Source of the DNA: Punctularia strigosozonata HHB-11173 SS5
Taxonomy: Eukaryota; Basidiomycota; Agaricomycetes; Corticiales; Punctulariaceae
NCBI RefSeq assembly: GCF_000264995.1
Contig: NW_006767433.1
Span: 1,044,577-1,108,576 of the forward strand
Reading direction: 5' to 3'
DNA: 64,000 nt
Positions 1-33,267 of the stretch are shown piece by piece. The translations under genes were made by a program, and so were the position numbers. The notes under the pieces are model-generated. The model saw only the letters and a list, made by a program, of their open reading frames with translations. It did not search any database and was not told the DNA's origin. Position 1 is the stretch's first letter. Each line of letters starts with the position of its first letter.

Positions 1-30
1 CGCCATGTTGTCTTCGTCTAGCATCTGTGC
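1..30 (-). CDS. Last exon, copy 1 of a repeated unknown family (cut by window edge)
   Basis: Read on the minus strand, a splice acceptor (TTCACAG) is followed at once by codons for A-Q-M-L-D-E-D-N-M-A, then the window ends. This matches the start of the conserved last exon at 1394-1465, 5224-5298, 5732-5806 and 19684-19761, with the same acceptor position and phase. The rest of the gene lies outside the window. Function unknown. Confidence 0.55.
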
Positions 31-1393
31 CTGTGAAGGCGCCAATGCTTAGGGCAGCAAGACGCGGAGAGCTGTCCAGTGCTGTACTTACGAAACCTGG
101 ACTCGGCTGTTTCTTTGCCTTTGAAGGTTTAGACCCCTTTCCAATTTGAGCGCCTGGTTGGGCTGATTTTGGTAGATTCTAGGTTCGAGCAGGGGCGTTA
201 GCGCGGACCGCCATGACTGCGCACCGACTGCGTACCAATGGGACGTTGTAGCGATCTTTGGACCCTGTCACCTGGACGGCGCCATCGAGAAACTCCGATG
301 ACGCTCGCGTGCTACTGGACGATATCGAGCTCGTGTTCGAGCTCTGTGGAGGCATTCAGAGGACGTTAAATGTCGCGTCTAAGCAACCCACGTTCGATGA
401 CCGAGAAGTGAGACGACGTAGCAGCGAGTTGTTAGACATGGCAGTGCTCTGCACGAGTAATTTGTCGGAGTATGGTAAAGACTGTGTGGGGGTAACGAGA
501 GGAGCAGCTCGAGCTTGAACGCGGACCCGTTCTCCCGAATGGGTCTCCTTTATACCTCGCAGTTCTGATCCCCTTCAGATCGCAGCGGCCGCGCATGTCA
601 AACCCCGACGTGCGTTTTAGATATCAGCGCGACGAATATCAGAAGCGCGCTGTATCTGTTTCCGTTGTCTCAGCCGCATTTGGTCACCTGGCGGGTTTCG
701 GGGGCCCATTCACATGGGCCGGAAATATTGCTCACAGGAGATGCAAAGGAGATGTGCACTGGCACGGTATTTACGGGGAGTGTAACATCGTTTGAACCTT
801 CGGTTCCGAGTCCGATTTGCGAGCCACATCAAGTCGCCTGCAATACCAATCGAGAGCCTGGGATGAGTGCAGTATGCTATCAGTCCAAGGCAACCCTGAC
901 AGTGAGATACGCCTGGTACCGGGCATCACATTGGCCATGTTCTCAGCTCATGGCTATGGACCATCTATCGAGCTGCCGTCTATCGTTACCTAGAAATAGT
1001 CGGTCCAGACATTTATACTTATTTTGGTCGACACGCATGTTGCGGCGATATTTCGGGCTGCAGGTTCTGAGTGGGAACGGTCTCTGGAGAATGCTATCTA
1101 CCCAATTCGTTGACATGAGAACCAAGTCGCGTCCTTCCTTCAGTACGCCATGCGCTCCGCACGCGAGTAAGATGCACTTAATGAGCTTGATATGTAGTCA
1201 TCGTTAGGTAATGTAATACAGTACTACTAATAGTTCACAGACATTCGTTGTTACACGGCAGATGCTTCCTCGAGTTTGCCCTAATCACCGAGAGACCGAC
1301 GCAGCCCGTCAACCACCGGGTACGACGTGCGTCATCCTGAATGTCGATCGACACCAGTGATGACCGTGGTGTATAGTATGCTTAGGTGCTTTA
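31..1393. other. Gene-poor stretch, no supported gene
   Basis: Only short open frames on both strands (up to about 180 codons), with no recognisable domain and no coherent chain of exons. It may hold upstream exons of the copy cut by the left window edge, but I cannot define any. Confidence 0.5.
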
Positions 1394-1465
1394 TCACCTG
1401 CGGGCAGACTGCTTCTTCGTGACAGGTGAGCCCCAAGCGTAATTGTCTTCGTCAAGCATCTCCGC
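1394..1465 (-). CDS. Conserved last exon, copy 2 of the repeated unknown family
   Basis: A 24-codon terminal exon on the minus strand. A CTCACAG acceptor is followed in phase 0 by A-E-M-L-D-E-D-N-Y-A-W-G-S-P, then a basic tail containing KK and RR, then TGA. The core matches four other loci in this window. Just upstream (about 1500-1610, minus strand) is a Ser/Thr/Pro-rich open stretch, as seen before the same exon in copies 3 and 4, so it is probably the penultimate exon. More 5' exons could not be traced. Function is unknown; the basic C-terminus could be a nuclear signal, which is inference. Confidence 0.5.
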   Translation of the reverse strand, partial: AEMLDEDNYAWGSPVTKKQSARR

Positions 1466-3050
1466 CTGTGAGGCAATTTGCACATCAGTCGTGCGGTCCA
1501 GGAAGAGCAAAGTGAAGCACTGACCACCACGCTCAACGAATTTGGCTGCGAGTTAAGGGACAGCATTGACTTGCTCGTCGTCGGCGTAAAGAGGGATGAG
1601 GACTGTGGATAAGGATTAGTGACGTCCTTCATAGCGCAGATCCGAGACATACTGTCGACAGCGGGCGCAGGCTTGGTCGCAGGGAGTTCTGAGACACAGA
1701 ATCGCGCTTCGAAGACAGAGAGGCCTTGGAGGTTCCGAAGCTGGCGCGCATTGTGTGATGTATGGGTGGTGGTAGTAGTAGTATTGGTAGTGTTGAGGAT
1801 GGGTGGGTTCGATGGAGCAGACGCCTCGGTTGTTGTGATGCGTTACCTCTACGTCCATGGGTTCTTTATATGCACCCCAGGATGAACGATATGACACAGC
1901 GCCAGGCCTCCGGATGGATAGAGCCGGTCGCGCCTCCTCATGGAACACCCGAGAAGGAGTAAAGGAATGCTCGGAGGCCGCATCCTCGCCACGCCGAGGT
2001 ACAGTTCGGACCAAGGCTGTCCAGATGAGCCGAGAAAGGTCGGGCGATGTCCGGACAGGACCTAGATGACGAGCGACGTGCTCATCCGCGTGCGTTCGAA
2101 GGGGCCAATTACCACCTCCTTGCGCTTTTTGTCTCGATCTACTCACACTGGTCAACACATCATGTGTACCTCTGTTGGAGAAGCCGGGACACACCATCCG
2201 GGTCGGCTGATGAAGGCATGCATTAGCATGGTTATGTCCGGGGTAGGCAGTCCATCGCCAATGGGAAGGACGCGCGATCGTCATGCAAAGCATACCAGCA
2301 TGTGGGGTATGACAGCTTCCCGGGATCCCGCGGAGTGGAGACGCGGTACATGCCCTGTTTGCAATGTGATACCGCTGTTCGGCCTCACCGAGAATCGTGT
2401 ACGACCGTGTAAGCAAATACCCAGAGATGGGAGCATAGCCGAGAGTAACCGGTGAGAGTGGGCTTGAGGATCGATCACGTGGTGTGCATGAAGGTCGAGT
2501 GGTTGACTGTAGTTTGACAGAAATTGCAGAGCAAAGCTCGGATGGGTGGATTTCTTGTCGAAGCGGAGATAGAACACAGATAATCAAGTGCACAAGGGCA
2601 ATGCATCGGTCGAGGTAAGTCTTAGAAGTCCGAAAAAGACGCCCTGACCGTTGTACGCCGCCTTATCGAGGGAAGGCCCAGCCTGTATTCGTCCATTTTT
2701 GCGAGTTCGGCGCATCCGGTAGCTGGCACTGATTAGTTCCAAGCCATTTGTCGGGTCTCTGGAATGCTCTGGAGTCCTACGTTTTCGCCGTCCAAGAAAC
2801 AGGGATTCCGGTCGAGGCCCGACACGTATGAGATCAGGCTAGGGCACGTCCTTTGAACTCGGCGACCATATGCATTACATGCCCTATCAATATATCAGTA
2901 ACATTGTTCTGGATGGCGCGAACTTGGTTGAGCGACAGGAGGCGTACCCTATGCCCCACAAACCCGGTGCCGCTGTGGTTTGTGTTCGCACCGTCGGCTA
3001 ACATTGCCCAGTGCAGCACCAGAGTGACAGCCATATTGATAGGTTAGAGC
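1466..3050. other. Gene-poor stretch with unconvincing long ORFs
   Basis: Contains a 325-codon minus-strand open frame (1616-2593) and several overlapping plus-strand frames. Composition is random-looking, with runs of Pro, Arg, Ser and His and no domain. Short GGT/GTA triplet runs lie near 1763-1800. It probably includes undefined upstream exons of copy 2. Confidence 0.4.
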
Positions 3051-3052
3051 TA

Positions 3053-3725
3053 CAGTGTTCAACCACTCCTTGATGCAGTCACGTGAGAGGGGTCCATAGC
3101 GCCTGCAATTCCGCAGTTCATGGCAAAGTAAGTATCTCATATGAAAGCTGCGAGCTGTAGCATCATGAGGAATATTTTTTGGAGCAAAATGAACCGGAGG
3201 GCAGCGTCAGTGAGACATTTTGTAAACGAGGTCGCCAGGTCGCCTCTATCACTCCTTGATGCACCGCTTACTGATGCCTCCGGTTACCCGGTGTGACTGT
3301 TCGAGTCACAGAATGTATTGGCGCGCGGTCAGTTGGCCGACGCGCGTCGGGCTCAGATGGGGTTCAAGCCTGAAAATGCAAGCTATGGACCCGGCATCGA
3401 CGATTTGGAACTTGGTGTCATAGCAAAAAATGTAGCCAGGATGGTGTTTCATAAGGAAGAGTCGAAAAAAATGCGACTGCCAGTGATGTTGAGAGCAGTT
3501 CTGGGCCCAACTCCTTAGCGCGATGTGCCAGAATGTTCATTCTCAGGCACTCGATGATTTTTCAAAAATCGACCATTTGCCCCACGGACTAGAAAACTTG
3601 ATACATTCTTGCAACAGTATGAAGGTACACTCTGAATTAATTATAAGAGGGTTCAGAGCCAGTGAAAGGCAGGAGAGCCGATTGCATCAAGGAGTGATAG
3701 TGCATCAAGGAGTGATTCAACACTG
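3053..3725. mobile_element. Non-autonomous Tc1/mariner-like element with TA target duplication
   Basis: The two ends form an imperfect terminal inverted repeat of about 26 bp. The left end reads CAGTGTTCAACCACTCC and continues TTGATGCA; the right end, reverse-complemented, reads CAGTGTTGAATCACTCC and continues the same way. Both ends are flanked by TA (3051-3052 and 3726-3727), the classic Tc1/mariner target site. The inner half of the repeat (CACTCCTTGATGCA) occurs again near 3250 in the left-end orientation and near 3687 in the right-end orientation, resembling the inverted-repeat/direct-repeat layout of Tc1 elements. I see no transposase inside, so it is probably a 673-bp MITE or decayed copy. 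Confidence 0.75.
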
Positions 3726-3727
3726 TA

Positions 3728-5114
3728 GCATGTATTTCCTTTCCGTGGTACACGTTAGAGAGATCAGGGGACGTATTCATATCCCATCAGGGTCCGACAA
3801 AGAGAGCACAAGTGACGTGATGACAAGATCGCGGCAGAGGTTGGCATGCATTTGTTTTAGAATGTTTATATCGAGGTCCCAAGGCCTGGACAGTGTTGTT
3901 ACAGAGCTCACGCGTTCATGGAAGCCGCTTGGTTCCTTGGTAGCGAATCGTCGTCCTCTTTTCGAAGACGCGTTGACACCGCAGTAGCTGCACATTCCCA
4001 CGGTCCCGTGGCTTGCACTGAGCCCTCTAGATCTCCGAGAACTTGAAACAGTGAGCTCGAGCTTGAGTCCATGTTGATGAACATTTCTTTGTACTTCAAG
4101 CTCTGCCACTCGATGGTCGTGATTTGTCTGAATCCCTTTGCATGGCTGTTGCTTCGACTCCGAGCCCGAGGATGCACCTAGGTCCCCGCCAGCGCTGCCA
4201 GTGCATGCGCACATGCTCTACGATGCTAGCTGTTCTAGTCGTGTGAGTGTGCGCAATACGAGATCTTCCCGAAGCAACGGGTAAGAAATAGAAGGTGTCT
4301 TGTTGCTGAACCAGTAACATCAGCGCACATTCTTATACTAGTCATCCCGGCGACACCTCTTCGAGACTCTGAGCCCCGTGCGCGTCCCGCCTTGGGCAAG
4401 GCCTCTCGCTTCATGTGTCCCATGTTACTGATTTTGGAGCAACCCTCGTTTGTTTTTAGCGCATATAGTTCAAACACGCAATAGCGGCGCGGGCGATGCG
4501 GGTACGCTCTCGCGCTGGTCTCGATGCCGAAGGTTCCAGGACGTTTTTGAGTTCCCGGTTGAATTGGTACCCGCATCGTCCAGGGGAAGATCTGAGGCCG
4601 ATCAACGGTTCGCGATTCTCCAGCACATTGGTGTCGACTATATGCGGTAACCTGTCGGTCGAATCCCGGATGAGAGGAGCACTGGCCTTATGCTAGAGTC
4701 GGCTTCCATTCATGTCCGACTGGGTGACTGACGCTTGATAGCACCCGCAGCGAAGAATGTCGAAGTCCAGCATCTTATAAATTTCATCGTTGCAGAGATT
4801 CTTTATCTTCGTTCCCGAACGCCTCCTATACCTCCGGCCCCTGCACACCTCTACTCCTCGACCCATCACTCCTTTAAACTACCATCACATGGACACAAAG
4901 GCGCAGGCGGTGACTTGACCATGACATCCGATAGTACATATTGCTGACTGCATTCGACAGACAATGCAAGAACATGTTATGCGGTCAGAGGAGACGGCGT
5001 CGATTAAAACCACACTTCGTCGCATCCCCTTCCTCAGACTTCATTCATTCTCGGCATGTCGAGTGGATTGTATGTTAACGCAAAGCACTCACGCAACACT
5101 TCATCATATAGAGC
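3728..5114. other. Gene-poor stretch, possible exon fragments
   Basis: No gene could be modelled. Around 4480-4650 on the plus strand a short coding-like segment (reading R-F-Q-D-V-F-E-F-P-V-E-L-V-P) ends next to a GT-poor junction. It could be an exon of the gene ending at 5298, but the link is not shown. Confidence 0.3.
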
Positions 5115-5298
5115 GTCTCGTCGTCTCGTAGCCAATCTTCCTCCTATCTTATATCGGAGTCCGGAATGCCCGTGAGCGAACCTGGTGCCTACATCTTTGT
5201 AAGAGACTTCTGACCTACTTTAGGCCGAGATGCTCGACGAAGATGACTGCGCATGGGGATCGCCTCCGAAACGTTCGCAGCGCTACAGGAAGCCTTGA
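5115..5298 (+). CDS. Last two exons, copy 3 of the repeated unknown family
   Basis: Plus-strand copy. A Ser-rich exon of at least 19 codons ends at 5171 with M-P. It is joined by a 52-nt intron (GTGAGC to TTTAG, 5172-5223) in phase 0 to a 25-codon last exon (5224-5298): A-E-M-L-D-E-D-D-C-A-W-G-S-P-P-K, then a basic tail and TGA. Copy 4 has the same order: a Ser-rich exon ending S-M-P, then an intron, then A-E-T-L-D-E-D-D. Upstream exons are undefined. The gene converges on copy 4. Function unknown. Confidence 0.5.
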
Positions 5299-5636
5299 AA
5301 ACTCCTGACTCCGGGGATAGTGATTTGCTTTGTGGACATGATGAAACTAGAGCATAGAGGCATTGAGCTATGTAGAAGGCCGGGAATCTAGATACGTTCG
5401 CGCGCATCATGATGTACACTCATTCAGGGAGCTATTCTGCATGGATATTGCTCTACATAAACTTCACTCGCTTCAGGGCGGTTTCAGGGTCATCCACTTT
5501 CCTAGAGTCATCGAAGATGGTAAGGATTGATTCAACACGTATTATCTATCGGCACACTACAGCTAGCTACCTCCACGAAAGTTTCACGAACGCCCATTGG
5601 TAGAGATACAATTGTCCAAATTGCAAGGCACACAAG

Positions 5637-6591
5637 ATAAGAATGCCCAAGAGAAATAACCAGCACCAGGCTCAAATAGGACAGATATTACTGCGCCAAG
5701 GCCTGGAAGTATGTTTCGATAAGTTGAACTTTCAGTGCATGTGCTTGCGCTGGCGGCGAGAAGGGCGAGATCCCCAAGCTTGGTCATCCTCGTCCAGCGT
5801 CTCAGCCTAATCCCCAGACGTTGAGCTTGAATTTTTCGCGAAAATATGGCGCAACTTACGATTACGGGCATGCTCGACGCTTTCGAAATCGACGAATCTG
5901 ATGATGATGATGACTGCCAGACGCTTGAGCACACGCGTTCACGGGAGGTGCGGTCACCTACTCACCGGCATAGAGTATCCCAGCTTCATGGGCTTTACGC
6001 TCTGGAAGCTCAAAGTTGACGAATTCGCACTGGTACCACTGGCAAGGGAGCGCCGTTTGGAGGCCTAGATAGTAATATGTAAGTTCATGCCGATTGGGCG
6101 TGCTCCATAATTCGGGACATACCTTGCTCGAGAGCGAGAAGGTCGACAAGGAGAACGAGGAAGGCATCAGGATGTTCAGTGCGCGATGAGGTATGTGTAT
6201 GTAGGATGATATCGATGCGGGTTGGGACAACGAACTTGACTGGGGCCGGGACGATGCTCGACCCTCCATTTACATCAGGAAAGTCCCCCCGTGCTCAGCA
6301 GACAGTAATTAGTGACTAGTGGTGTGAATCCTGCTAATGGTACTAATAATGCAGCAAGCTTGTAGTGGCAGAGGCTGCTCAGCATACTAATGCTCATAAT
6401 CTTGACTAAGCATAGTAGCATGACTGGCCATGAACTTGTTTGGATTTGAAGGGTACATCACTACTGTAGACAGATATTATTATATGATAGTAAGAGATGT
6501 TGTGAATAGAAATGAGATGCTGGCCAAGGCACAACATAATGTGATGTAGGTATGCCGGTCTGTGAAGCAATTCACATAAAAATTGTCACAT
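5637..6591. repeat. First copy of a 955-bp perfect direct repeat flanking the N gap
   Basis: This 955-bp segment ends exactly at the first N (6592). Every stretch I compared is identical to 6848-7802, which starts exactly at the first base after the N run, at a constant offset of 1211. A repeat whose ends coincide with both gap edges is the signature of two contigs with overlapping ends that were joined with Ns instead of being merged. Confidence 0.9.
5732..6123 (-). CDS. 3' exons, copy 4 of the repeated unknown family
   Basis: Minus strand. The last exon (5732-5806, 25 codons) reads A-E-T-L-D-E-D-D-Q-A-W-G-S then a basic tail and TGA, after a GATTAG acceptor. Upstream lies a Ser-rich stretch ending S-M-P (about 5860-5930). 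A further exon at 5966-6064 carries a coding-like frame (Q-W-Y-Q-C-E-F-V-N-F-E). It is joined by a 58-nt intron (GTATGT to ATCTAG, 6065-6122) to a 5' exon ending at 6123 that can be read upstream to about 6290 (F-L-V-L-L-V-D-L-L-A-L-E-Q). The phase between the middle exons is not fully settled. The whole locus is repeated at 6943-7501, which I attribute to the assembly overlap. Function unknown. Confidence 0.45.
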
Positions 6592-6847
6592 NNNNNNNNN
6601 NNNNNNNNNNNNNNNNNNNNNNNNNNNNNNNNNNNNNNNNNNNNNNNNNNNNNNNNNNNNNNNNNNNNNNNNNNNNNNNNNNNNNNNNNNNNNNNNNNNN
6701 NNNNNNNNNNNNNNNNNNNNNNNNNNNNNNNNNNNNNNNNNNNNNNNNNNNNNNNNNNNNNNNNNNNNNNNNNNNNNNNNNNNNNNNNNNNNNNNNNNNN
6801 NNNNNNNNNNNNNNNNNNNNNNNNNNNNNNNNNNNNNNNNNNNNNNN
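6592..6847. other. Assembly gap (256 N)
   Basis: A run of 256 undetermined bases. Because its two flanks are the same 955 bp, the gap is probably artificial and the true sequence likely runs 5636, then one 955-bp copy, then 7803. Confidence 0.95.
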
Positions 6848-7802
6848 ATAAGAATGCCCAAGAGAAATAACCAGCACCAGGCTCAAATAGGACAGATATT
6901 ACTGCGCCAAGGCCTGGAAGTATGTTTCGATAAGTTGAACTTTCAGTGCATGTGCTTGCGCTGGCGGCGAGAAGGGCGAGATCCCCAAGCTTGGTCATCC
7001 TCGTCCAGCGTCTCAGCCTAATCCCCAGACGTTGAGCTTGAATTTTTCGCGAAAATATGGCGCAACTTACGATTACGGGCATGCTCGACGCTTTCGAAAT
7101 CGACGAATCTGATGATGATGATGACTGCCAGACGCTTGAGCACACGCGTTCACGGGAGGTGCGGTCACCTACTCACCGGCATAGAGTATCCCAGCTTCAT
7201 GGGCTTTACGCTCTGGAAGCTCAAAGTTGACGAATTCGCACTGGTACCACTGGCAAGGGAGCGCCGTTTGGAGGCCTAGATAGTAATATGTAAGTTCATG
7301 CCGATTGGGCGTGCTCCATAATTCGGGACATACCTTGCTCGAGAGCGAGAAGGTCGACAAGGAGAACGAGGAAGGCATCAGGATGTTCAGTGCGCGATGA
7401 GGTATGTGTATGTAGGATGATATCGATGCGGGTTGGGACAACGAACTTGACTGGGGCCGGGACGATGCTCGACCCTCCATTTACATCAGGAAAGTCCCCC
7501 CGTGCTCAGCAGACAGTAATTAGTGACTAGTGGTGTGAATCCTGCTAATGGTACTAATAATGCAGCAAGCTTGTAGTGGCAGAGGCTGCTCAGCATACTA
7601 ATGCTCATAATCTTGACTAAGCATAGTAGCATGACTGGCCATGAACTTGTTTGGATTTGAAGGGTACATCACTACTGTAGACAGATATTATTATATGATA
7701 GTAAGAGATGTTGTGAATAGAAATGAGATGCTGGCCAAGGCACAACATAATGTGATGTAGGTATGCCGGTCTGTGAAGCAATTCACATAAAAATTGTCAC
7801 AT
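6848..7802. repeat. Second copy of the 955-bp repeat flanking the N gap
   Basis: Starts at the first base after the N run and matches 5637-6591. It contains a second apparent copy of the copy-4 exons (last exon 6943-7017) and the 3' end of the Plavaka transposase coding sequence (7691-7802). The first repeat carries the same transposase 3' end with nothing upstream, as expected of a contig end. Confidence 0.9.
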
Positions 7803-10800
7803 TCATCAAGGACATTGAAGCTGGTCCACTGTAAGGGAACTTCAGGTCCGAAACATGGAATAAGGTGGACACTGCGGTAAATGCACTGTATGTCAATCAC
7901 CGATGCAAGCCGGCGATTGTTCTGGTAGGAACGTCGAATCTTATACATTCCATGTGATGAATGTGGCCTGGCTGCAAAGGGTGTGAACCATTCGACATAT
8001 GCCAGGTGCTTTGGCGGTGGTGGACCTGGATGACTTGTATTTGAAGGAAACCAGCGTTCAATAGCATGTTGGGGAAGTGTAAATATTGCTCGGACTTGAG
8101 CAACCCGGTAAGCTATGATGCACTATTGTCAATGCCCTAACACATAGTGTGTAACATGCTCTCAGAACTTACGATGAATGTGGCGTCCAGCTCTTGACTC
8201 ATCCTTTACTAGGACAGTGTCAAACCGTCCAGGGATCAGTTGTCCACGTGTGTTCTTGCGTGAAGGCTGGGCATCAATAGCATCATATATGCTGCCATTG
8301 TTGTCCCTAAACTTCAGATGATGGAACACAGGAACCCGTCGAAATGGAATGAGCAGATTTTCTGCAGCATGACGTATCTGTGAGGTTGACCATGAGGGAT
8401 TCTTGTAACCAATGATGAAATCTGCAAGGGCATCTCCGAAGTCATGTGTCCCGTAGTTGTCTGTCAGTGAGTCAAGTGAGACCGCCTTTACTGAGGGATA
8501 TTTAGATGCTGTCGGGTGCAAATGAAGGCATGATTCCTGATTGTCTCTTGATGAATCTAAAGGGTTCAATCTTGCTGATATATGTGTGCTGTGGCGCTGT
8601 ATTTTCTCCCGCCGCTCGAGCCAACCTGTCATCTGTGGGTACTCATCGCGGTGATTTGTTGAACGATATGCCTCTTTGGCGAGGTCAATGTGTAGACGCT
8701 CAGACATCTCTGTGTTGTAGTTGTCTGTGGTGCCAAAGTTCATGATTCCTTCATAGTAATGCGACATACTATGAAGCTTGGGAAGATTGAAATTTTTCCG
8801 AATCCCAAGTTCGACAAAGATCTGCTTGTTTGAGTGAAATATCTTCAATGAGTCTTGCATAACTGTGAGAGTGTCTGCAGATTGGACAGGAAGCTGTGCA
8901 ATGTAGAGGAAATCCAAGGCTGCACGAGTAGCAGTTATGAGACGTGTTGGTGACTGTCCAGAAGGAAGGGGTAGATCAACGATGAGACCAAGGAGTATGG
9001 CACAAATTTGACGGTGCTCCTTTCCTGTGATTCTGCTGAGTGAGGTGATACCATTGGTGAATATCCGTGTGCAGTGATTTAAGGGCATCCGTTGGCACCG
9101 TGCATCAATCTCGTGCGCACCGAATATCTCCTTGAGCCATGCGATGAGATGTTTTATGAGACCTTGATACAGCTGATGGAGAATGTCTGGGGTGATTGAA
9201 ACATAGATGTTGTGATATGGAAGGTCCTTCCAGAAAGGCCGCGCTACTGGTTTGATGCCTAAATGATTGCATGCATGAACGAAACCTGTTGGATCACGTG
9301 GATAGAGCTCGAGTGCTTGAAGAATGGCTTCGATATCATGTTTAGGGCAGCCAGACGAGGTGTGGGGATTACCCGTAGGATTGTGTGGAGGGGGTTCACC
9401 CAGTTGATCATGAGGGGTTGTGCCTTTAGGACAGTGTCCGTGTTTTGTGGCAGTAGCTGCGCACTGCTCTGGGTAGTCACCAACAAAAATTGCAAAGATT
9501 GGATGACACCTGTGGATAGCACCACTTGCTCTTGTCATAGGGATCCCTGTTTCGCCATAGGTAATGATGGGCTCCAAGATTCTTGCAACCGCACCATGAA
9601 AGAGATTTCCTAGTGCTCGACGGCGGCTTGCATCTCCTCGAACATGTTCAAGGCGAGCAGTCGGCAAATAACCTAGGAGTATCTGAGCATGCTTCGATGG
9701 CTTCGAACGTATATGCTTGGGAATATTGCCAATTGTCAGATAAATGGGATAGGCTGACTTGTTTCGGAAGAGTGTAAGCTGTGTCTTATCCGAAGAGATG
9801 ATAAGCGGAACAATTGTAGCACCAGGCTTTGCTGCCTCGAGATCAACCTAACACAGATGTCTAAGATCAACTTATGTGTAGCATTGGCTGACGAACCTGT
9901 GTATCCCACCACCACATGCCCGTGTGCATGTCATGGTACACACGTTTCTGCTTGCTTGAATCTGTATAGTGCCGTTCAGGCTGCAAGATGAGATTGGGAT
10001 CAAAGTTTGGGTCGCCAAACAAGGCTCTGACACATTGAATGATGTCCCGATAGTAGACGTCATATGACTGGCCTGCGACTTCTATCTGATCACGAAGGAA
10101 TGGGGGGCGATTACTTGGTAGCTTGTTGTCGATGATACGATTGAGCTCGGGAGTGTTTTTAAATGATAAGTTGAGTGCATCAGCAACCTTTGAACGCATA
10201 GTAAGTATGAATATGAATGAAATAGAGCGAAGAACATACCCCATCGATAGCCAGGAGCTCAGAGAATGCGGTTGAGCCTGGTCCTCGCAGCTTTGCCCAT
10301 TGTGCTATTTCCCAATCCATCTTAGAGATGAATGGTGCATAGACATTTTCATGATCTGGTACAATTGATGGATTCAAAGTATGGATCGACTGCTGATAAG
10401 CCTCATTTGCACGTGGGGCACCATGTGACATGGGTGCGCCAGCAGTAGGTATAGGAAAGCGTACAATGGTTGGGGGGGTTACAGGACTATGCCCTGTGGT
10501 AGTAGGCCTAGATAGCCCCGGTGCGCCTGCAGATTGGGCAGACATTTGTGGATCATTACCAGGGAGTGATTGTGGGCCCATTGGTGCAGTTGCCCCTGAT
10601 GACAAGGGTTCCCGGTGTACGTGAAGCAGATCTTCCATGTCCTGGCTATCGTCAAAATTATCGTCATGCCTGCAGTAATATTTACTCAATCCATATTTCA
10701 TGTAACAGCTTAGGAGCTTCACAGACTCACGGTTCATGGTCTTCCCCTGGTTCCACTTCTTCAGCCTCGAGGCCGAAGTCCGCAGGGTGCTGGTATGTAC

Positions 10801-11069
10801 CGAAGTAATCGGTGAATATTGCCTATGTGTAATTGAGAGTACATCGATGATCACATCACTACTAGATATACTTGATTTGCTTGAGATGACGAGTCTCCTG
10901 GGGCACTTGAGCTCGTTGATGTCGATCCACCCATTGCACTCGGAAATGCACGGGCATACGCGGCCTCCCAGACAGCTCTACATCGTAAATCTGATGTGAT
11001 TGAGAGATGCCGCTTCCGATCACTTGCTCTACGAAAGGTTTTACCACATCCCTCGCATGTATTCGACAT
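7691..11069 (-). CDS. Plavaka-type (KDZ superfamily) transposase
   Basis: Six exons on the minus strand (10872-11069, 10731-10822, 10240-10669, 9897-10187, 8173-9847, 7691-8112) splice in phase into 1,035 codons without a stop. The N-terminus has a C2H2-type zinc finger (C-E-G-C-G-K-T-F...H-L-S) near residues 5-30, then a Pro/Ser/Thr-rich linker. The large fifth exon holds the conserved core: Y-P-I-Y-L-T-I-G-N-I-P-K, then P-F-W-K-D-L-P-Y, then T-P-D-I-L-H-Q-L-Y-Q-G, then E-R-L-H-I-D-L-A-K-E-A-Y. This order is typical of Plavaka transposases, which move DNA by a DDE-type reaction. The start at 11069 puts the zinc finger at the very N-terminus. Introns are 47-61 nt; one donor is GTTCGT. The intact frame suggests recent activity. 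The 3' end is also duplicated beside the assembly gap. Confidence 0.85.
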
Positions 11070-11303
11070 TGCGCTGCCGCTGTATGCACGGAGATGAAGG
11101 GCAATGTGGTGGTAAGAGTAAAGATACGGACGATGTGTGAAGTTGATGCACCGCCAGATGGCCTGAGTCTCGGCGTGTCGCCTCTTCACCCTCCTCCTCG
11201 TTGTTGCGTGCTGGCATGCAATGGCTCCCATATTTATACCCGCTCTATTCAATCGACTCTCCAAGCTCTCTTTTCCCCTTTCTCATTCCCTACCCTATTT
11301 ATT
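11070..11303. promoter_or_regulatory. Shared promoter region between the transposase and DUF6532-like gene
   Basis: 234 bp between two divergent start codons. The right half has pyrimidine-rich tracts (CTTTTCCCCTTTCTC near 11270) and a TATTTATA-like stretch near 11231, plausible core promoter elements for the plus-strand gene. No experimental support. Confidence 0.4.
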
Positions 11304-13712
11304 ATGTCTGGACGCAAGCTGCGGAAGAAGGCGACTACAAGGACAGCTGACCATGCTGGCTCAGGCATGGACTCGACTCAGAACATCGCGCACACAAGGT
11401 CTACAGGTCGACGGGGCAAGAATTCGGGAGACAGCAATCCAACACTCACGGCCATCCTCACCCCTGCGCAGAAGGCTGCGCGAACACGAGCAGCAAATCG
11501 GGCAGCCAGAGAACATATTGCCGATGGTAAGCCTGAAATGCATCACCTCCCAGCCATATTCTGATACTCTTTCACAGCCGTTCTGCCCAACGCAGTTGAT
11601 GATGTACCAGCCATGGCTCGCAAGCGGCCGGAAACTGGGTCAGAAACCAGTGCACCGTCGACCGACATGCCAGCGGCAAAGCGTGTTCGCAATGGTCAGT
11701 ACACCCTGTCATATCTTTGTGCATTGCTCATGCTTGAGTGGTGAGCAGATCGCCGTCCTCCACGCACCGCAATTCGTGACAACCCTGAGCATGATGCAGC
11801 TCAGGAGGTTATGGACCGCATGGCACTACATCCTCCTAGCCAGCCATCAGACACCGAAGGTAAGCTTATTGAATGCATGTTTCATTCATACTTAATACTA
11901 CATGCATCTAGATGAAGACAATCACAGCCAGAAGACGGATGGCGAAGAGTCAGAGACCGAATTGGAGGAGGACCCAGTGACTGACCTGATGGGACAGTCT
12001 GGTCGTCGCAATCTCCGACGCCAGCTTGCTCTTGAGGTATGTAGTGGATTATGGTGTACCTTATGGTGTACACGTCCCTTTCTGACTGCGCTTTGTTTTG
12101 TAGGAGATATCATGGGCCTCCGATAAACATCATGCTGTCCTGCAACCCGTCATCGCCCTCCAGTCCCGGTCAGCGGACTTGGCTGTTCCGTCTCCATCTC
12201 ACTCGCCTGCAAGCTCGAACAGGACCCCTTCGCTCAGTTCATCGTCTTCGCAGACACCGGAATTGCCGTTTACGCATTTCATCGATCCCGTTCTCCTCGA
12301 ACAGTCCGAATCCGGTGCATCATCACCAGCACCAAACTCCTCATCATCCTGCATCTCGCAAGCGTCCACCCGTCGTCCATCCGCAAACATCCGGGCATCA
12401 GCCCGTGCAGCTTCGGCCACGCCTCAAGTAGCACACATGGCGGGTACATCACTCTTGCCACCACGATCGGTTTCTATGCCTTCCGCGGCCTCGATATCAT
12501 CCGCTCCCCCTCCAGTTACCAGTACCTTTGTGTCGTCGACATCGGCTGCGGTCGCGGTTACCAGTCCCGGGCCTGGAGTGGTAGCGGTGGATAGGGTGCG
12601 GTTCTCTGCGGAGTCTCAGACCTTCAATGCTGGATGGCCCGACTGTACGTGGATCGAAGTACCGAAGAAGGGCAAGACTATCCTAATCACAGCTCAGCCT
12701 CAACATATACACAAGCTCCTCAACGATGCAACATACTATACTCACCTTTTCATGTGCTTTCACGATGCATTTCCTGACCACGATGCTCGCGCAGAGCTTC
12801 TTCAACGTGCGGTCAAGGCCGCCGTGGAGAAACTGCAAGCGTCAGTTCGGGACCCTTTTCTCCATCGTCTAGAAGCCCAGCCAACGTTCGCTGAGTACAT
12901 GATGTCTTCGGTGAGCTTGGTACACAGTGTATGAAAGGATGCTTATCATTCCTCATGAAGCCTCTGGGTCGCATCGGCATTCTTCGATCTGACATCAAGC
13001 AGTCGTGCGAAGCCGCTGTAGTCGGTCATTACGGACTGGTGTCGGGGTGCATGGAGCGCGTCATGGCCGAGCTCGACAAGGACAAGTACATCTATGCACG
13101 ATCTCCCACTGTACGTACGTCTGTGCTACCGTCTGACCGATCTCACATGCTTGTCTAGAATGCGCGGCTCAAAGACCGGCCATTCCAACATCCCTGCATC
13201 ATCGATCAACTCAGGACCCATTTCTTCGCGCATAGCCCTCGCAAGGGTCGCCCTCTCACCCAACGCTTCAACGATAATTTCATCTCAAGTGTCACCTGGG
13301 ACGCTCGGAAGGAAATCCCGGCTCCTATGCTTGCCCTTATTGCAACTGCTGTCAGTGATCCGTGCCATGCCTCGCATTCAAGCTCACCTCGGCCTCGTAG
13401 ATATACGCAGCCATACGCGAGTGGGAGACCGGTGAATGCGTTACCGAAGACTTCACGGCCGACACGTACATGGACGTTTACAGCTCACACATGCTCACCC
13501 TTGCGGACATCAAGCAGGCATCGGAGCGGGCATATCATGGGATGATGGCAGGGTTATACGAGGCTGCTTCGTGAGTACAGTCATGTTGTTCACAAAGCCT
13601 TGATTATAGAACAAAAACTTCAGAAACACTGCTCCGAAACCGCGCCGAACGCAAGCCATCACAAGCAGGATCCAAGATATCGATCTCGAAGGAATGGCTT
13701 CGTAGTATGTAG
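11304..13712 (+). CDS. DUF6532-like transposon-associated protein
   Basis: Nine exons (11304-11526, 11578-11694, 11749-11869, 11912-12036, 12114-12910, 12961-13110, 13159-13350, 13401-13570, 13610-13712) give 665 residues. The N-terminal half is basic then acidic and strongly Ser/Pro/Ala-rich, hence probably disordered. The C-terminal half (about residues 390-630) carries the fold: S-D-I-K-Q-S-C-E-A-A-V-V-G-H-Y-G, then R-P-F-Q-H-P-C-I-I-D, then I-P-A-P-M-L-A-L-I-A-T-A and R-E-W-E-T-G. I recognise this as the DUF6532-type domain common in agaricomycete repeats. Its biochemical role is unknown; DNA binding or a transposition accessory role would be a guess. The acceptor used at 12960 (AAG) is weak, so that junction is less certain. 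Divergent from the transposase. Confidence 0.7.
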
Positions 13713-15545
13713 TATCGTGTTCGTCGCATTGATACCCGCATTCTGGTCCCACTCTTTTGTGCTCGTTTCCGTTTCGTTGATATCAGTTTGCCTATGCGTA
13801 GCTAGCTCCGTATAATGTCGTACACGCGGATCTAATGTCATCGGACGTGACCTCATCTTCGACGAACCATGCGCTAATCGCAGCTCACTGAGCATCTGAT
13901 CGAGTGCTAATCGCGACGAACTTAGTGACGATTCTCAGAGCCCGGTTTCCTCGCCCCCGATGGTTGGTTCGGTCTTAGACGAGCGCTTGCGCTTAATTGG
14001 CAGATAGCTTGAACGCATAAGAGGGGGTGGGTGTATAATGCTGCCAAGGTCTCCAAGCCTCTAGATTCGTACTAATTGTAACTCATTAGGCCGGGGCGAA
14101 AGTCCTGATGTATACAACAGGGTATCCTAGGCAAAGCGGGGCGGGCCGCGCAATGGGACCAAGCCAAGACCATCCAAGTGCCTCAGGGCGGCGTGAGTAT
14201 TCGTGGGTTATCCTGGCGGGTCCAAAAATAGCTTTGCGCAGCGGCAAAGAAAGACTCGGGGGAACCCGCTCGTACTCGTCCTGAGCACACGCAATATTAC
14301 ATGAGAGACCTCCGCCAAGACGAAGACACCCATGCATGTGAACCGCAGAGGTAGCGGTACTGAGCGTCGCGAGCTCGCTGTGGATGCGCGTTGCCTGACA
14401 AGGATGTCCTAAGTGTTTGCAGTAGGCTAGTTTGCTACCAAGAACCTCTCTCCAAAGGATGTCTCCCCGCCGGAACATCGATGAGGATGTTATCGGCTTG
14501 AGCTCCGATGATGCTGCACGGCTTCCTTTCGAAGCTAGGCGTGGAGACCATGCTTGGGTATGGTTTCCTGTACGCGGGCAGTGCACCGCAATTCGTTAGC
14601 CCCGTTGAGTAAACACGTATGGACGGGTGGAGTGTGCTATGAATCGTTCATAATGGCGAACCAGGCCTAAATCGGGTACGTTTTCGGGCCGAGTCGAGGC
14701 TCCCCAGGAAAAGATATATCGACCTTCAAGGTCCGGTCGATGTCAGTTGCTTCCGCATACTGTGCACGAATAAGCCTCCACAATGGCGTCACAGGTGAAT
14801 CGTCGGTGTGAAACGAGCTTGAGACACCTCCACCGTCAAGTTCTAATAAAGCATGAGGTATACCTACCATTCAGTAGTGATGTGGTGTCTGACCTTGATC
14901 AGCAGCACCCTACGCATCTGTAGGGTTCAAGTCCGTAAAGAACCAAATCCTCTGAACACGACTTTGCTGAAAGGGCAGTATGTTACGTGCATGAATCATC
15001 AGAGGGATTGAATATTGTAGACGGTGCATAGCAGCCATTACGCACCGTAGCATTAGTCAGATCACCATACGCTGCAACTGATGTGCAGGAAAAGATCAAC
15101 AAGATTCCCAGAGATGTAGAGGTCGAATTACAGCGTGATCAACCCCTGCATGTCGAACGGAAGAAATCTGTTCGAGGTGACGGAGTCCTTCTCTGGCCAA
15201 ACAAAATCGTACGGGAGCCCTCATGCGCAGCCCTACAGCACAAGGAGCGTCGAACGAACACCGTCGGCTGGCAGTTACTGTGAGTTCTATGTAGGTGGAT
15301 AGGTACTGCACGCTTGAAGCCAGCGAGGCCCCTTACAGTCCCCCACGCACACGTGGCATTCAATGCACTGACATTTAGTGACGCGAAGGTCGCGCATGTC
15401 GGGCATCGCTTGCCCGTGCGGCGTGCATCAATTCATCCGAGGCAGCACTGTTCTCAACGGATATCCGACGGTGCAGAATACCGATTATATTATACCGACA
15501 TTGTGTAATAATACATTGCAAGATGCGCCGCGATCAGGTGTTCTA
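13713..15545. other. Intergenic stretch, no supported gene
   Basis: Several short frames on both strands, none with a domain or a convincing exon chain. A lone B-box-like sequence near 14925 has no tRNA fold around it. One end of the Plavaka element probably lies here, but no boundary is visible. Confidence 0.5.
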
Positions 15546-16028
15546 TTACTTCTTCACCTCGTTCTTAAAGTCTTCTTTTGCAACCCGTGCGCCAGCCGCG
15601 GCCTGACAAGGTGGTTAGAGTTACTGACGATGGCGAAATCTCTGGAGACCGACCTGGTTGGCTTTCTGACCAACGAGATCAGCATCTTCCTTCGCTCCTT
15701 GTTTAGCCTGCTCCGTCTTTACACCTGCAGGTTGTGTTCGTCAACGAGATGAACGCTACTATGCCATGCATCACGTACCCAACGTCTCTTTAGTTGCTTG
15801 AGTCGCCTTCTCTCCCTTCTCAATGCCAGCTGCCAACGTTTGTCCTACCTTGATATTGACCTGATATGTCTTTAGTACCCAGGCCTGCGCTCCTCAGGTA
15901 CGGACACGTACATCTTTGGCGGTCTTCTTGACCTTCTCCGCTGCAGATTCAGCCGCCGCCGGCGTGTAGTGGAAAGCGCGGGCGGCCGAGAGAGCGGGGA
16001 TGCGAGCGGTGATTGCGGTGCGAAACAT
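15546..16028 (-). CDS. Small LEA-like mitochondrial protein
   Basis: Four exons (15912-16028, 15779-15860, 15654-15724, 15546-15602) splice in phase into 108 residues. Residues 1-23 are rich in Arg, Ala and Ser without acids and fit a mitochondrial presequence (M-F-R-T-A-I-T-A-R-I-P). The rest is a Lys/Glu/Ala/Thr-rich amphipathic helix with K-x-x-A and A-x-x-T-K-E-T repeats, ending A-K-E-D-F-K-N-E-V-K-K, typical of group-3 LEA-like small proteins. Such proteins are thought to protect membranes or proteins under drying or stress; that role is inference. The gene is too fragmented by introns to show as an ORF, so it is easily missed. No neighbour within 2 kb suggests a shared function. Confidence 0.75.
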
Positions 16029-18563
16029 CGTGAATACAGGGATGCGCGTTGAAGATGAGTTAATGTGTATGCAGTGGTGGTATAAGTATAAGATGAGGGC
16101 CCTGGTGGTGCGTTGTCCAATTTCATGGGCGCTTTATGAGGAGAGCAGGAGGAGAGGCGCAACCAACGCGTGACGTCATCGATGTCATTTCGGACCCCTC
16201 TGTAGTCCCGAACCCCTAGCTCCTCGTGCGACTCTTTCTGCGGTACAGCTTATATTTCGCCTACTGTCGTCGACGATCGAGGAGAGCTCAAGCGCTCACG
16301 AGCACTAAGCAGATAATGCGCAAGAGCTTTCCACGTACGCGGGTTTGCTCGCGCTCCGCAAAGGGGCGTGAAACGATGATACGCTTGGGGCTCCGGGAGT
16401 CAGGGTCGACTGAAGCATTCTACGGTGCTGTGGACCGAATGACTAACGTCGTGGTCTGATCGTTAGTACACATAGCGTTCAGACTGACATCTTCCATACG
16501 ATTAAGTCTTCAGGACACATTGTTACTCAACTCGGAGGTCCAAACACTTGCGTGAATATACACTGCTGAAGGGTGTCAGAGCAAAATCACAGAATCCGTA
16601 AATGTAGCATGAACGTCCATACATATCCTAGTTATGCCGCTAACCCTCCTCGGCGGAGTCTGCCCTTGTAATTTCCGGACAAGAATGTATGGTCGCATGT
16701 TCATCACGTTGTCTACTTGGCGCGGACGGTTGTGCCATTTCTGAAGGCCCAGGAGATGCCATGTTCTACACTGCATGGACGGAGTTAGTTGCTGCAGTAT
16801 GGAAGGTAGACGGAAGTAGCTCGCCTCAGTAATGCAAGACATACGAGCACCTAAATGTGCTCGTACGCCCACGCAGCGCCTCACTGACCTATACAGAACA
16901 CCGCGAACTGCCCTCATTCCTGCGGACGTAGATCCTGTGAAGACGTGGGTATTCGTTCCCCTGCCTAGGATTGCCCTAACGCGGAGAGTACCACAGATGC
17001 GGTGTGGGACCAGTCTGTGAATCTGGGACCTAAAATAGGAAATGTCGTTCTCCGACTAAACGACCTCCGCAAGACCTCCAATACAAACCGGTGTACGATC
17101 AAGCGCCGCACCTCATCGTGTAAGGGCGGTCGACTCTCGGGAAGGGCCTGATAGCCCTGCATGGATATCGTTTCATCAATGCCGAGATCGTCCGCTGCGC
17201 AATGAACGGGGGTATGGGTATATTTCGACTACGCGCCAGAGGCCGCATTCCCGATTCTAGTGGAACTGCGTTGATACGAGGCCGCCCGGACCATGGTGCT
17301 TATTGGACGGTCGATAGGATGATAGATGGTATAGAACGCCTGAAGAAACTACGTTTTGCCACATCATCAACACCAACTTCATTAGAAGATCCGCGAGCGG
17401 CTTACCACGGTGTCGTTATGTCTCCCAGAACCTGTCCTGCGGTAGCATCCAATATCTGGGCTCGACATTCTCTGGGCGTACCACACGCCCGGTGCGACTA
17501 TCTCGATCCCTGTCAACTGCGAGGCAGTCTCCGAAGTGCTTGGGCGTTGCCTTGCCCAGGAAGACAGGCCCAGTCGTATCTATTCTTGCAGCGGGCTTGG
17601 CGCCGCTTCCGACGATCCAAATTCTTTCTCGCACCCTTCCTTCCAGGCTGCGGACAACCTGAAGACGAGAGTCTTGGTGGACATTGGTAGTTTCCTTGGC
17701 CAGGCGATTCGCAAGGCGCCGCTGCGCGTCGGAATCGGAGATTTGTATATAAAATGGGCGGCGTCTGCGATGTTATCTGCATAAACAGCTCTCCTCGAAC
17801 CCCGGATCTGCACCACATAATCACCCGCACTTACTGGACCACCCGCACCATCCGCAATCAACATGTTCTCCTGGACAACTACCAAGGTACGGCAAGTTGT
17901 CCACGTGTAAATAATCCGCGATTGACGGCCCGTACACAATCCAGCGCAACTCCACCGCATCGTATCACCGCCGAGCTTCGAGTTGTTACTCTCGGTATAC
18001 GAGCGAGCCTCGACCAGAACTGCAGCATCTTCGTTTGGAGATAAACCGGGTAAGGATCCATTGTGCGCCTTGTTGAAACGCTGGGCTCACCAATACTTAG
18101 ACGCTCGCGACGCCTCCCTATCAGCCGTCTTCGCTGAGTCTGGAGAGCACCACTGGCCCAGTAAGATAGCCTTGTTGTACATCACTGATTACGACGTAAC
18201 ATCCGTCAGGCACTTCTATTAGACGAGGATGATTGGTCTGCATGGGGACCACCACCTCGCCGACGCCAGAGGAGGAGGCTCTTTTAGGGTGTCTATGTTT
18301 ATACCCATCTCGGTTCAGTCATATTGTATCAGAATAGCATACTGCGGACCTATAGACTGTACGGCGACGCCACCCTGTATTGGGCGACTTATGAAACCCA
18401 AACGGAATCATCCTAGCTTCGAGATAGTTATTATATCTAAGCAAGCAACGTCAGCGTCGAGTTCTCCGAGTTTCCTCATACACCAAACTATGCAGGACTC
18501 ACCACGATGCGTCTGTGGCCATCCCCAGGGCATAGTTTAGGGTAAGATAGATTGTATCCGGAT
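16029..18563. other. Intergenic stretch with undefined ORFs
   Basis: Open frames up to about 160 codons occur on both strands. Near 17580-17900 both strands read coding-like at once (minus: G-D-Y-V-V-Q-I-R-G-S-R-R-A-V-Y-A-D-N; plus: L-V-D-I-G-S-F-L-G-Q-A-I), so at most one is real. I could not connect either into a gene or recognise a domain. Confidence 0.35.
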
Positions 18564-19349
18564 TCAGAGAGCCTGTTGCGGTTCCCTATGCCACAATCCA
18601 AGAGAGTCGGCCTCGGCCTCCACCTCAGCAATAGCTTCCGCCACTTCCCCGCCCCCGCGTAAATCCATAGGCACGGTGTCCCTCCCATAGACCCTGCCGA
18701 ACAACTGCGCCAATGCCACCATCTCATCGTCCACGCGCACCGGCGCCCCAACAGCCCCTTCTATCGACCCCGCCTTCACATCCGCCAGCCCACAAGCCAC
18801 GACTGTATTGAACCATGCCAACGGCTCATCTGTAACGTTGATAGAGAACCCGTGGGACGTGAGACGATGCCGTACTTGCACCCCGATGCTAGCCATCTTC
18901 GTCTTCCCATCGCCCGCAAAGACGCCTGTATGTTCACTCGGCACGGCTTGTATACCATGACGCTCCTTCAAGAACATCTTCAACATGTTCTGCATGTTGC
19001 ATATATAGTCGTGAACGCGCATGGAGGGCTTCCAGCGACTGAGGTCAATCAAGGGGTAACCGATGATCTGACCTGGGCCGTGATACGTGAGCTGGCCGCC
19101 ACGGTTCGTGGCCTCGAAGTCTGCGCCCATTCCCGTCAAGCGCGCCCTCTCCATCGACAACTCCTCCTCGGTCTGTCGGCGTCCCGCGGTGAACACAGGC
19201 CGGTGCTGCAGAAGCAGAAGCACATCTTGGTGCGAATTGCTGATAGAGCGAAGGTCCAGCTGTAGCCGATGTATTCGTTCCTGAAGAGCTAGTGTCCGAG
19301 CATAGGGCAATGGGCTGCGAAAGCAATGGTAGAATATGGGTTGAACCAT
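18564..19349 (-). CDS. LIP2: Lipoyl(octanoyl) transferase
   Basis: Intronless, 261 residues. LipB-type enzymes move the octanoyl group from mitochondrial acyl carrier protein to a lysine of lipoate-dependent proteins (H protein, E2 subunits), the first step of lipoate synthesis. The family signature R-G-G-Q-L-T-Y-H-G-P-G lies at residues 83-93. G-D-G-K-T-K-M-A-S-I-G (147-157) gives the conserved lysine at 151, and A-C-G-L gives the catalytic cysteine at 186. Length fits the family. The frame is open for about 20 codons upstream without another ATG before a stop, so this start is the only AUG; the basic N-terminal extension of some fungal homologues is absent. Isolated between two gene-poor stretches. 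Confidence 0.92.
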   Translation of the reverse strand: MVQPIFYHCFRSPLPYARTLALQERIHRLQLDLRSISNSHQDVLLLLQHRPVFTAGRRQTEEELSMERARLTGMGADFEATNRGGQLTYHGPGQIIGYPLIDLSRWKPSMRVHDYICNMQNMLKMFLKERHGIQAVPSEHTGVFAGDGKTKMASIGVQVRHRLTSHGFSINVTDEPLAWFNTVVACGLADVKAGSIEGAVGAPVRVDDEMVALAQLFGRVYGRDTVPMDLRGGGEVAEAIAEVEAEADSLGLWHREPQQAL

Positions 19350-19683
19350 GAGGCGCGCTGGCAGAAGACGGGCGAAGCTTTGAAGTCGATCGCGTCCATC
19401 TGACTAAACGGAGTCAGCGGAAGTCCTTCAGCTCCGCAGGTCTAAATGCACAATGACCGTGGGACCCTGCTGTGTGATGAAGTAACTTTGATGAACTGAT
19501 CCATTCTAATCGGTGGCTTCACTTTATCACTGAGTGAGCTATTAACTCAGGAAGTTCATGCGTAGCCGGGCAGAGCAAAACGAGGCGCGGCTACAGGCAA
19601 AGGACAGATAATAATGATACATGTCAAGAGGTATCCTCGTGTATAGTGGTCGCAGTTTCGTCCAACAACAAGAGCATCGTTGT

Positions 19684-19897
19684 TCAGTACTTGGAGCGGG
19701 TCTTGCGCTTCCGCCTTGAAGGTGGTCCCCAGGCTTGATCGTCGTCATCGAGCATCTCAGCCTGAGTTCGCTCGTCAACAGATTGAACACTGCGGGGAAC
19801 GAGAAGAGCTTACCACATAATGACCGTCATGGCTTGCTGCAGTATCCTGTTCCTGAATACTAGTCATGCGTGATGAAGGTGTCTGATAGTAATTCAT
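19684..19897 (-). CDS. Last two exons, copy 5 of the repeated unknown family
   Basis: Minus strand. A Ser/Thr/Gln-rich exon (readable from 19897, ending at 19814 with H-D-G-H-Y-V) is joined by a 52-nt intron (GTAAGC to AACTCAG, 19762-19813) in phase 0 to a 26-codon last exon (19684-19761): A-E-M-L-D-D-D-D-Q-A-W-G-P-P then an Arg/Lys-rich tail and TGA. Possible upstream exons lie around 20162-20460 (V-R-Y-S-A-K-L-V-L-G-C-A...S-S-R-S-V-S-S-M-S-G-D) and 20740-21100, same strand, but I could not join them. The intron phase and position before A-E-M-L-D match all other copies. Function unknown. Confidence 0.5.
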
Positions 19898-32285: not shown

Positions 32286-33267
32286 GACGCAGGACCGCGT
32301 CCCAACTGGAAACGGTCGGGCTTGGCATAACGTTGCGTACCAGCGTCGTCGCCATGAGCATAAAGTACAGCTAGCAGGCAAAGAACAGTCGACAGCTGCG
32401 CAGACCACAAATCGTCAATATTCGAGTCGGTTGGGTTTGATTTCAGATCCAAGAGGGCGACGCGGTTACTGCGCGAACTTGATGACCGTTGCTTTACTGC
32501 ACGATCTTGCAGGCCGGGTTTCCTACTCTGGCGAGGCATTTTTCTCGAGCAAGGCACGAGATGCCCGTGTTTTGCCCAAGCTGCAGTATGCAGCTCAAGT
32601 TCTTCGAATGCTGAAGCCGTGATCAGGGCAGTGCTGCTTGAACTTGAGTTCGCACGAGGCAAGGCGATGCGCTGCGCTAGGATCGGCGAGTTCTTCGCCT
32701 CTCTTGTGGAAGGCGGCCGTGCAGCTCAATTATAGCCGGACCACCTGAGGTAACAAAGCATGGTTTCACAGTGGTAACGTGACCGTACTTCGTATCCATT
32801 GCGATGGATGACCGTTCAACCGCACATGTGGTGTTTGAGATGGTCTCGAGTCGAAGTGTATCTGGCAACGGTTGCCGGCATCGGCAGGCCATCGTGGCAC
32901 TGGTTTCGTTCCGAGAGTTAGGTCCATCCGAGTCTCATCAAAAGATGTGATGCGAGGCCGCACACGGCGAAGCCATCGGAACGAAGTCGGCACAGCATCA
33001 CCCCGTCTTGGGCTCGATCCAGCTCGATCCACGGCCATTCAGCCATTCACGCTCCTCCTTTATAAGATGCGGGTGGCCGCCATTGTCCCCTCACCTTTTT
33101 ATTCGATAGGTCACCTCTTTCTCCTGCACATCTTTCCCGGTTCACGATCAGGCATCGTCCACCGCCAGTCTTTACGACGAACGACTTGACCCGGTGTCTA
33201 TCCTTCGACTAACGTTCCTTACCCGACTCCCCACGTACTCCCGGATTACCTTGCTATACTCTCAATC
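32286..33267 (+). promoter_or_regulatory. Upstream region of secreted protein gene A, with TATA box
   Basis: No gene found. A good TATA motif (TTTATAAGA) lies at 33059-33067, about 200 bp before the start codon at 33268, followed by pyrimidine-rich tracts. A near-identical TATA context precedes the paralogue at 35476, suggesting both are strongly expressed. Confidence 0.5.

Follow-up and report, generated by a model that had tools for sequence, protein, structure and literature searches.

Six putative small-protein genes sharing a terminal acidic tryptophan-glycine exon in one cluster of the Punctularia strigosozonata genome

Loci and gene models

The 64,000-nucleotide (nt) stretch of Punctularia strigosozonata HHB-11173 SS5 considered here (the window; C1:1044577-1108576, where C1 is contig NW_006767433.1) carries at its left end a cluster of six loci, c1 to c6, at which a last exon in phase 0 opens with A-x-x-L-D-[ED]-D-[DN]-x-A-W-G (Table 1). 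By a six-frame scan and reading of the sites, each of these exons is preceded by an AG acceptor. For the five last exons described in the original prediction, the places, strands, AG acceptor, phase 0 and motif were all borne out; the count itself has to be raised by one, as the sixth copy, c6, carries the motif with one inserted residue. An apparent extra copy at 6943-7017 is a second c4 last exon inside a duplicated segment. Because 5637-6591 matches 6848-7802 at 955 of 955 bp, and both copies stop at the edges of a 256-N gap (6592-6847), we consider 6848-7802 to be probably an assembly duplicate of 5637-6591, an unmerged contig overlap that doubles c4, and exclude it from the gene count.

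Table 1. Gene models of the cluster and other features interspersed with it (window positions; aa, amino acids; ORF, open reading frame; MITE, miniature inverted-repeat transposable element)
Feature	Position	Strand	Exons or extent	Last intron (nt)	Product or remarks
c1	1..439	-	392-439, 236-343, 92-178, 1-30	61	96 aa ending AQMLDEDNMAWGSPS; last exon passes the window's left edge by 18 nt, to C1:1044559
c2	1394..1751	-	1653-1751, 1525-1602, 1394-1465	59	82 aa ending AEMLDEDNYAWGSPVTKKQSARR
MITE-like element	3049-3729		681 bp		terminal inverted repeats of 29 nt, 93% complementary; partial internal copies
c3	4889..5298	+	firmer exons 5112-5171, 5224-5298	52	SVSSSRSQSSSYLISESGMP, AEMLDEDDCAWGSPPKRSQRYRKP (firmer exons); 5' half ambiguous
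c4	5732..6167	-	6123-6167, 5966-6064, 5860-5913 (or 5866-5913), 5732-5806	59 (53 with stronger donor)	88-90 aa ending AETLDEDDQAWGSRPSRRQRKHMH
Plavaka transposase ORF	8165-9847	-			PF18759, E 1.8e-76; DUF6830 match below cut-off; between c4 and c6
c6	17863..18287	+	17863-17886, 17945-18049, 18101-18160, 18210-18287	49	88 aa ending ALLLDEDDWSAWGPPPRRRQRRRLF
lipB-like ORF	18567-19403	-			lipoyl ligase A/B catalytic domain; between c6 and c5
c5	19684..20153	-	20094-20153, 19944-20039, 19814-19882, 19684-19761	52	100 aa ending AEMLDDDDQAWGPPSRRKRKTRSKY

To check the hand-built models, we worked back from each last exon to an ATG and listed all GT-AG paths scoring above set values. The hand model was the top-ranked path in c1 (score 5.92, all phase 0), in c2 (3.55) and in c6 (6.33, the single open path there). 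For c5 it ranked second (5.99), behind a longer N-terminus without a TATA box that scores 6.52. The best c4 path (5.03) lies two residues off the hand model at one donor and ties with a longer N-terminus; c4 has no TATA box, and an in-frame ATG upstream would extend its product. At c3 the upstream half could follow model A (4889-4909 and 4961-5062, with weak donors; 85 aa, score 2.20) or model B (ATG within exon 2; 76 aa, score 4.16, no TATA box). The original prediction gave 52 nt for those last introns that it could measure, a length found for c3 and c5 and not for the other four copies.

As a control, 3,000 random [ACT]AG acceptors were drawn from the same 234 kb round the cluster, coding parts included. 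Any path at all was available to 281 of the 3,000 control acceptors and to all six copies; paths that kept phase 0 throughout and ran through two or more upstream exons remained for 60 controls and, again, six of six. Demanding in addition a score of at least 3.5, a cut-off fixed after the copies had been seen, left 8 of the 3,000 controls and retained every copy; demanding instead, at any score, a TATA box 104-121 nt before the ATG left 3 controls and five of the six copies. These boxes (TATATA in c6, TATAAA in the others) stand 115, 119, 113, 110 and 117 nt before the ATG in c1, c2, c3 (model A), c5 and c6, and the chance of five of six falling in one fixed 10-nt window is 2.8e-13 before correcting for the ~400 window placements. 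Upstream 8-mers common to the copies, with one mismatch allowed, were no commoner than in 15 Markov controls. Judged from splice paths and promoter-like spacing, the six loci look like real multi-exon genes with introns all in phase 0.

Distribution, divergence and surroundings

Across the genome searched (33.57 Mb, 32 contigs), LD[DE]D[DN]xAWG, written as an exact degenerate DNA pattern, gave 6 matches, all in the cluster (C1:1044572 to C1:1064328), with 0 for the reversed control; one of them is the assembly duplicate, and c6 is not among them. A relaxed motif pattern returned the same 6 places (control 0). A pattern with a one-residue insertion and at most one mismatch found c6 exactly, along with 2 one-mismatch places elsewhere (reversed control 6), and an acceptor followed by A[EQ]MLD matched at five places (control 3), of which 4 lie in the cluster; the fifth, on C14, reads AEMLDNLSLHREQS and was rejected as a family member. 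At up to 3 mismatches there were 104 places, compared with 32 for the reversed control, and 98 of the 104 lay outside the cluster. Ninety-four of these 98 were listed and 53 were read, namely all 8 with 1-2 mismatches and 45 of the 86 listed with 3; none of the 53 has an acceptor followed by a member-like motif in phase 0, the best scoring 13.9 and 12.2 against 39-42.5 for copies of the family. Since only 53 of the 98 outside places were read, diverged members may exist elsewhere in the genome. Over the 234 kb round the cluster, a profile derived from the copies, with acceptor and phase 0 required, gave 37.1-42.5 for the copies themselves (c6 lowest, with its insertion penalty), 26.4 for a shifted second reading of c1, and 9.5 for the next best place. 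Full-length protein searches of the genome, made with c4 and c5, produced no match outside the cluster at E < 1 and one outside row at E 1.18.

A genome search with the motif pattern, as the original prediction had proposed, gave matches confined to the cluster, with controls at 0, and the proposal that the family is lineage-expanded found no support: the genome searches made gave no member other than the six genes in one 20-kb cluster. We also rejected a dispersed transposable element or repeat, as the exact pattern has six places in the genome, all within this one cluster and one of them in the assembly duplicate, to which c6 is to be added.

Over the eight core motif codons, which were picked for being conserved, the 15 pairs of copies gave a proportion of synonymous differences (pS) of 1.00 and of nonsynonymous differences (pN) of 0.054. 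The values were 0.91 and 0.17 over all 12 aligned motif codons, and 0.75 and 0.51 over the 8 codons that open the tail in the five tailed copies; the inserted codon of c6 was left out of these figures, as was c1 from the tail comparison. Because synonymous sites in the motif are saturated and nonsynonymous sites nearly fixed, the copies are, on this codon evidence, old and constrained paralogues in which the motif rather than the tail is held. Over their full length the other products are 26-43% identical to c5, and the c4/c5 alignment runs through SL-x-SK-x-SKR-x-SL. The claim of a diverged family, made up neither of recent duplicates nor of a dispersed repeat, is supported by the saturated pS and by the confinement of the pattern to the cluster, and the difference between pN and pS over the core supports the further claim that conservation of the terminal motif reflects constraint.

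The description of the surroundings as gene-poor was only partly right: a lipB-like gene and the Plavaka transposase ORF sit inside the cluster, as does the MITE-like element. By eye, a DIRS-like retroelement (L009 1-2919), with adjacent reverse transcriptase/RNase H and tyrosine recombinase-like ORFs, lies ~17-20 kb left of the cluster. Further to the right in the window, two adjacent ORFs at 33190-36521 have a common stretch, TNNFINFCAGQTITNGKQITTGSCNPAPMGQ, and appear by eye to be paralogues of a probably secreted protein; a long ORF series at 43092-54177 (+) resembles, again by eye, a dynein heavy chain gene.

Products and a possible docking role

The predicted products are 82-100 aa long (c3 76-85 by model) with a Ser+Thr content of 24-36% (c3 taken as the 85-aa model, here and for the 19-residue, motif and tail figures below). 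On the Kyte-Doolittle scale the averages of 19-residue stretches stay at or below 0.79, with no hydrophobic or membrane segment, and the most hydrophobic 12 residues near each N-terminus score -0.94 to 0.73, which, as far as hydropathy alone can tell, is low for a signal peptide. Net charge is +3 to +9 in the body and -3 to -5 in the motif; the expected Arg/Lys-rich tail, at +4 to +7, is present in five copies, c1 being the exception with a value of 0 and a Lys-rich penultimate exon. A Ser-rich penultimate exon, announced for c3, c4 and c5, was found in the first two (10 of 20 and 10 of 16 residues) but not in c5 (4 of 23). A [KR]Rx[ST] site occurs within the first 32 residues in five of the six products (shuffle P 9.5e-6, with motif and limit chosen post hoc). 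There is one tryptophan each in c1, c2, c4 and c5, one or two in c3 depending on the model, and three in c6, one of which belongs to W-G; c6 alone has two in the motif region (DDWSAWG). The chains end in GSPS, SARR, YRKP, KHMH, RSKY and RRLF.

A Pfam scan of all six products at E up to 10, judged against the curated cut-offs, gave no match at cut-off for any of them and, for c2, c5 and c6, none at all, in agreement with the original prediction, which named no family with this ending. Below cut-off, c3 matched Amidase_2 in both models (E 0.064 and 0.084; 14 and 13.6 bits, cut-off 26), c4 matched Flavi_NS4A (E 0.36; 11.2 bits, cut-off 27), and Erythro-docking (E 0.28) was the second such match of c1. 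In PDB (177,635 sequences), a profile of the motif had no match at E up to 10, and one of the six models none at E up to 1. Neither the 253 pattern stretches from GTDB contigs searched with c5 nor the 140 from IMG/VR contigs searched with c4 included a relative. The motif strings occurred in none of the open-licence papers searched, and among the papers listed for other terms we judged none relevant, which does not prove the family unpublished.

Because no domain was found and a nine-residue C-terminal motif is constrained while the body is free, the simplest reading would be one of docking adaptors. We propose, with a probability of roughly 0.45, that six real and old paralogous genes encode small, disordered-looking, Ser/Thr-rich basic adaptors whose C-terminal motif docks onto one conserved partner. 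Each protein would then be a non-enzymatic adaptor or inhibitor, and its acidic tryptophan-glycine peptide would enter one conserved pocket of the common partner, with the tryptophan as anchor and the Asp/Glu run as charge complement. The basic tail might promote entry into the nucleus or contact with an acidic surface, a basophilic kinase (resembling protein kinase A) acting at the N-terminal site might switch activity, and the diverging Ser-rich body could serve as a linker that distinguishes the paralogues. A nuclear role is compatible with the sequence. The family is of interest as a well-bounded one of small proteins that have kept little beyond a nine-residue motif while the rest diverged, and a motif of such a kind points to a conserved partner. 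If the proposal is true, it also illustrates how genes whose phase-0 exons are few and tiny may go unrecognised.

Several points weigh against this proposal. The splice weights were set by ourselves and not trained on the source genome, and the score cut-off lies just below that of c2 (3.55), the lowest-scoring copy. Weak parts of the models are the 5' half of c3 and the upstream region of c4, and the enumeration did not return the 78-aa hand model of c3. Selecting the core codons for conservation lowers pN, if not pS. The c1 product ends in AWGSPS and lacks the basic tail, c3 is the copy without a [KR]Rx[ST] site, and c1 matches the unstructured region RGS12_usC below cut-off (17.8 bits against 28; E 0.0044), most likely through composition. 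The docking, kinase and nuclear steps, finally, are ones that we infer.

Rival readings and known systems

The likeliest of the named rivals to the docking adaptors, itself unlikely, would have nuclear acidic peptides, in which Leu and Trp amid Asp/Glu form an activation-domain-like patch or one that binds histones or transcription factors, and the basic tail is a nuclear localisation signal. In five of six copies the -3 to -5 patch with its Leu and Trp does lie beside a +4 to +7 tail, and acidic activation domains have properties resembling such a patch; they are usually looser, however, than the exact spacing and invariant A-W-G found here, the Pfam scan found no DNA-binding domain in the products, and c1, being tailless, is not covered. 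Least probable of all the readings considered is a degenerate repeat or transposon-derived exon in place of expressed genes. The interspersed transposon sequence and the exact duplicate among the apparent copies would suit it, but that duplicate is bounded by the gap on both sides, no further copy came from the pattern searches, the protein-level constraint goes with saturated synonymous sites, and splice paths and TATA spacing are consistent when set against the 3,000 controls.

We regard as very unlikely an Argonaute-hook-like role, in which an acidic, Ser/Pro-rich disordered W-G peptide would fill the tryptophan pocket of PIWI and the proteins would act as competitors or tethers in the silencing of the surrounding transposons. 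Such a role would fit a W-G flanked by small or polar residues in a disordered-looking protein, the Piwi-domain matches over cut-off on five contigs (C1, C4, C10, C12, C16), and the transposon sequence within and beside the cluster. It also gains from published work: proteins with GW repeats reportedly bind Argonautes in plants and fungi (PMC12477606), and GWC1, a GW/WG protein, and the GW182-like GWO1 are listed for the basidiomycete Cryptococcus (PMC4778953). On the other hand, one Argonaute tryptophan pocket is called less conserved in fungi and plants (PMC12477606), and hooks are described as typically carrying repeats with conserved tryptophans, two or three of which suffice per Argonaute (PMC10991848). 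Repeated GW/WG is not what the tryptophan counts of c1 to c6 give, and the invariant acidic run forms no part of the hook descriptions compared. A special form of this idea is harder still to credit, namely that an undescribed endogenous single-WG family would fill the Argonaute pocket in a phosphorylation-dependent manner and so comprise a small set of fast-evolving RNA-silencing modulators beside the transposons affected. Ranking between these two is the suggestion that the products bind delta-COP or some other adaptor in trafficking, with the C-terminal acidic tryptophan motif seated in a mu-homology-type pocket. The ELM class for delta-COP ligands bears the name diTrp (PMC7145657); a two-tryptophan acidic stretch is seen in c6 alone, and the products have no hydrophobic membrane segment.

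Compared with known systems, the predicted proteins resemble the Argonaute-hook GW/WG proteins (NRPE1, SPT5L, TNRC6; Cryptococcus Gwc1/Gwo1) in having Trp-Gly within a disordered small-residue context, and differ from them in having mostly one tryptophan instead of repeated GW/WG, with a fixed acidic run preceding it. With the delta-COP diTrp ligands (Dsl1, ArfGAPs) they share a tryptophan in acidic context, whereas their motif has one tryptophan (except in c6) and no trafficking domain was found. Basidiomycete mating-pheromone precursor clusters consist of small multi-copy genes on both strands of a fast-changing region, and c1 to c6 are likewise small, multi-copy, on both strands and in such a region. 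A C-terminal CaaX box is the mark of such precursors, and none occurs among the six C-termini; all 25 listed STE3 matches fall on another contig, C12, and the 4 Homeobox_KN matches on C1 near 2.50 Mb (2), C2 and C11, none of them in the window, so that both pheromone precursors and a mating locus were rejected. Together with laccases in the genome, the STE3 and Homeobox_KN matches point very probably to a basidiomycete and likely to an agaricomycete; one laccase exon is closest to Laccase B 3kw7 and other laccases, without being identical to them. Taxonomically restricted (orphan) families of small proteins are a recognised class. Without membership being implied, c1 to c6 are like them in their shortness, lack of a recognisable domain, local clustering and fast-diverging body, and differ from them by a C-terminal motif that is exon-encoded and strictly constrained in six of six copies.

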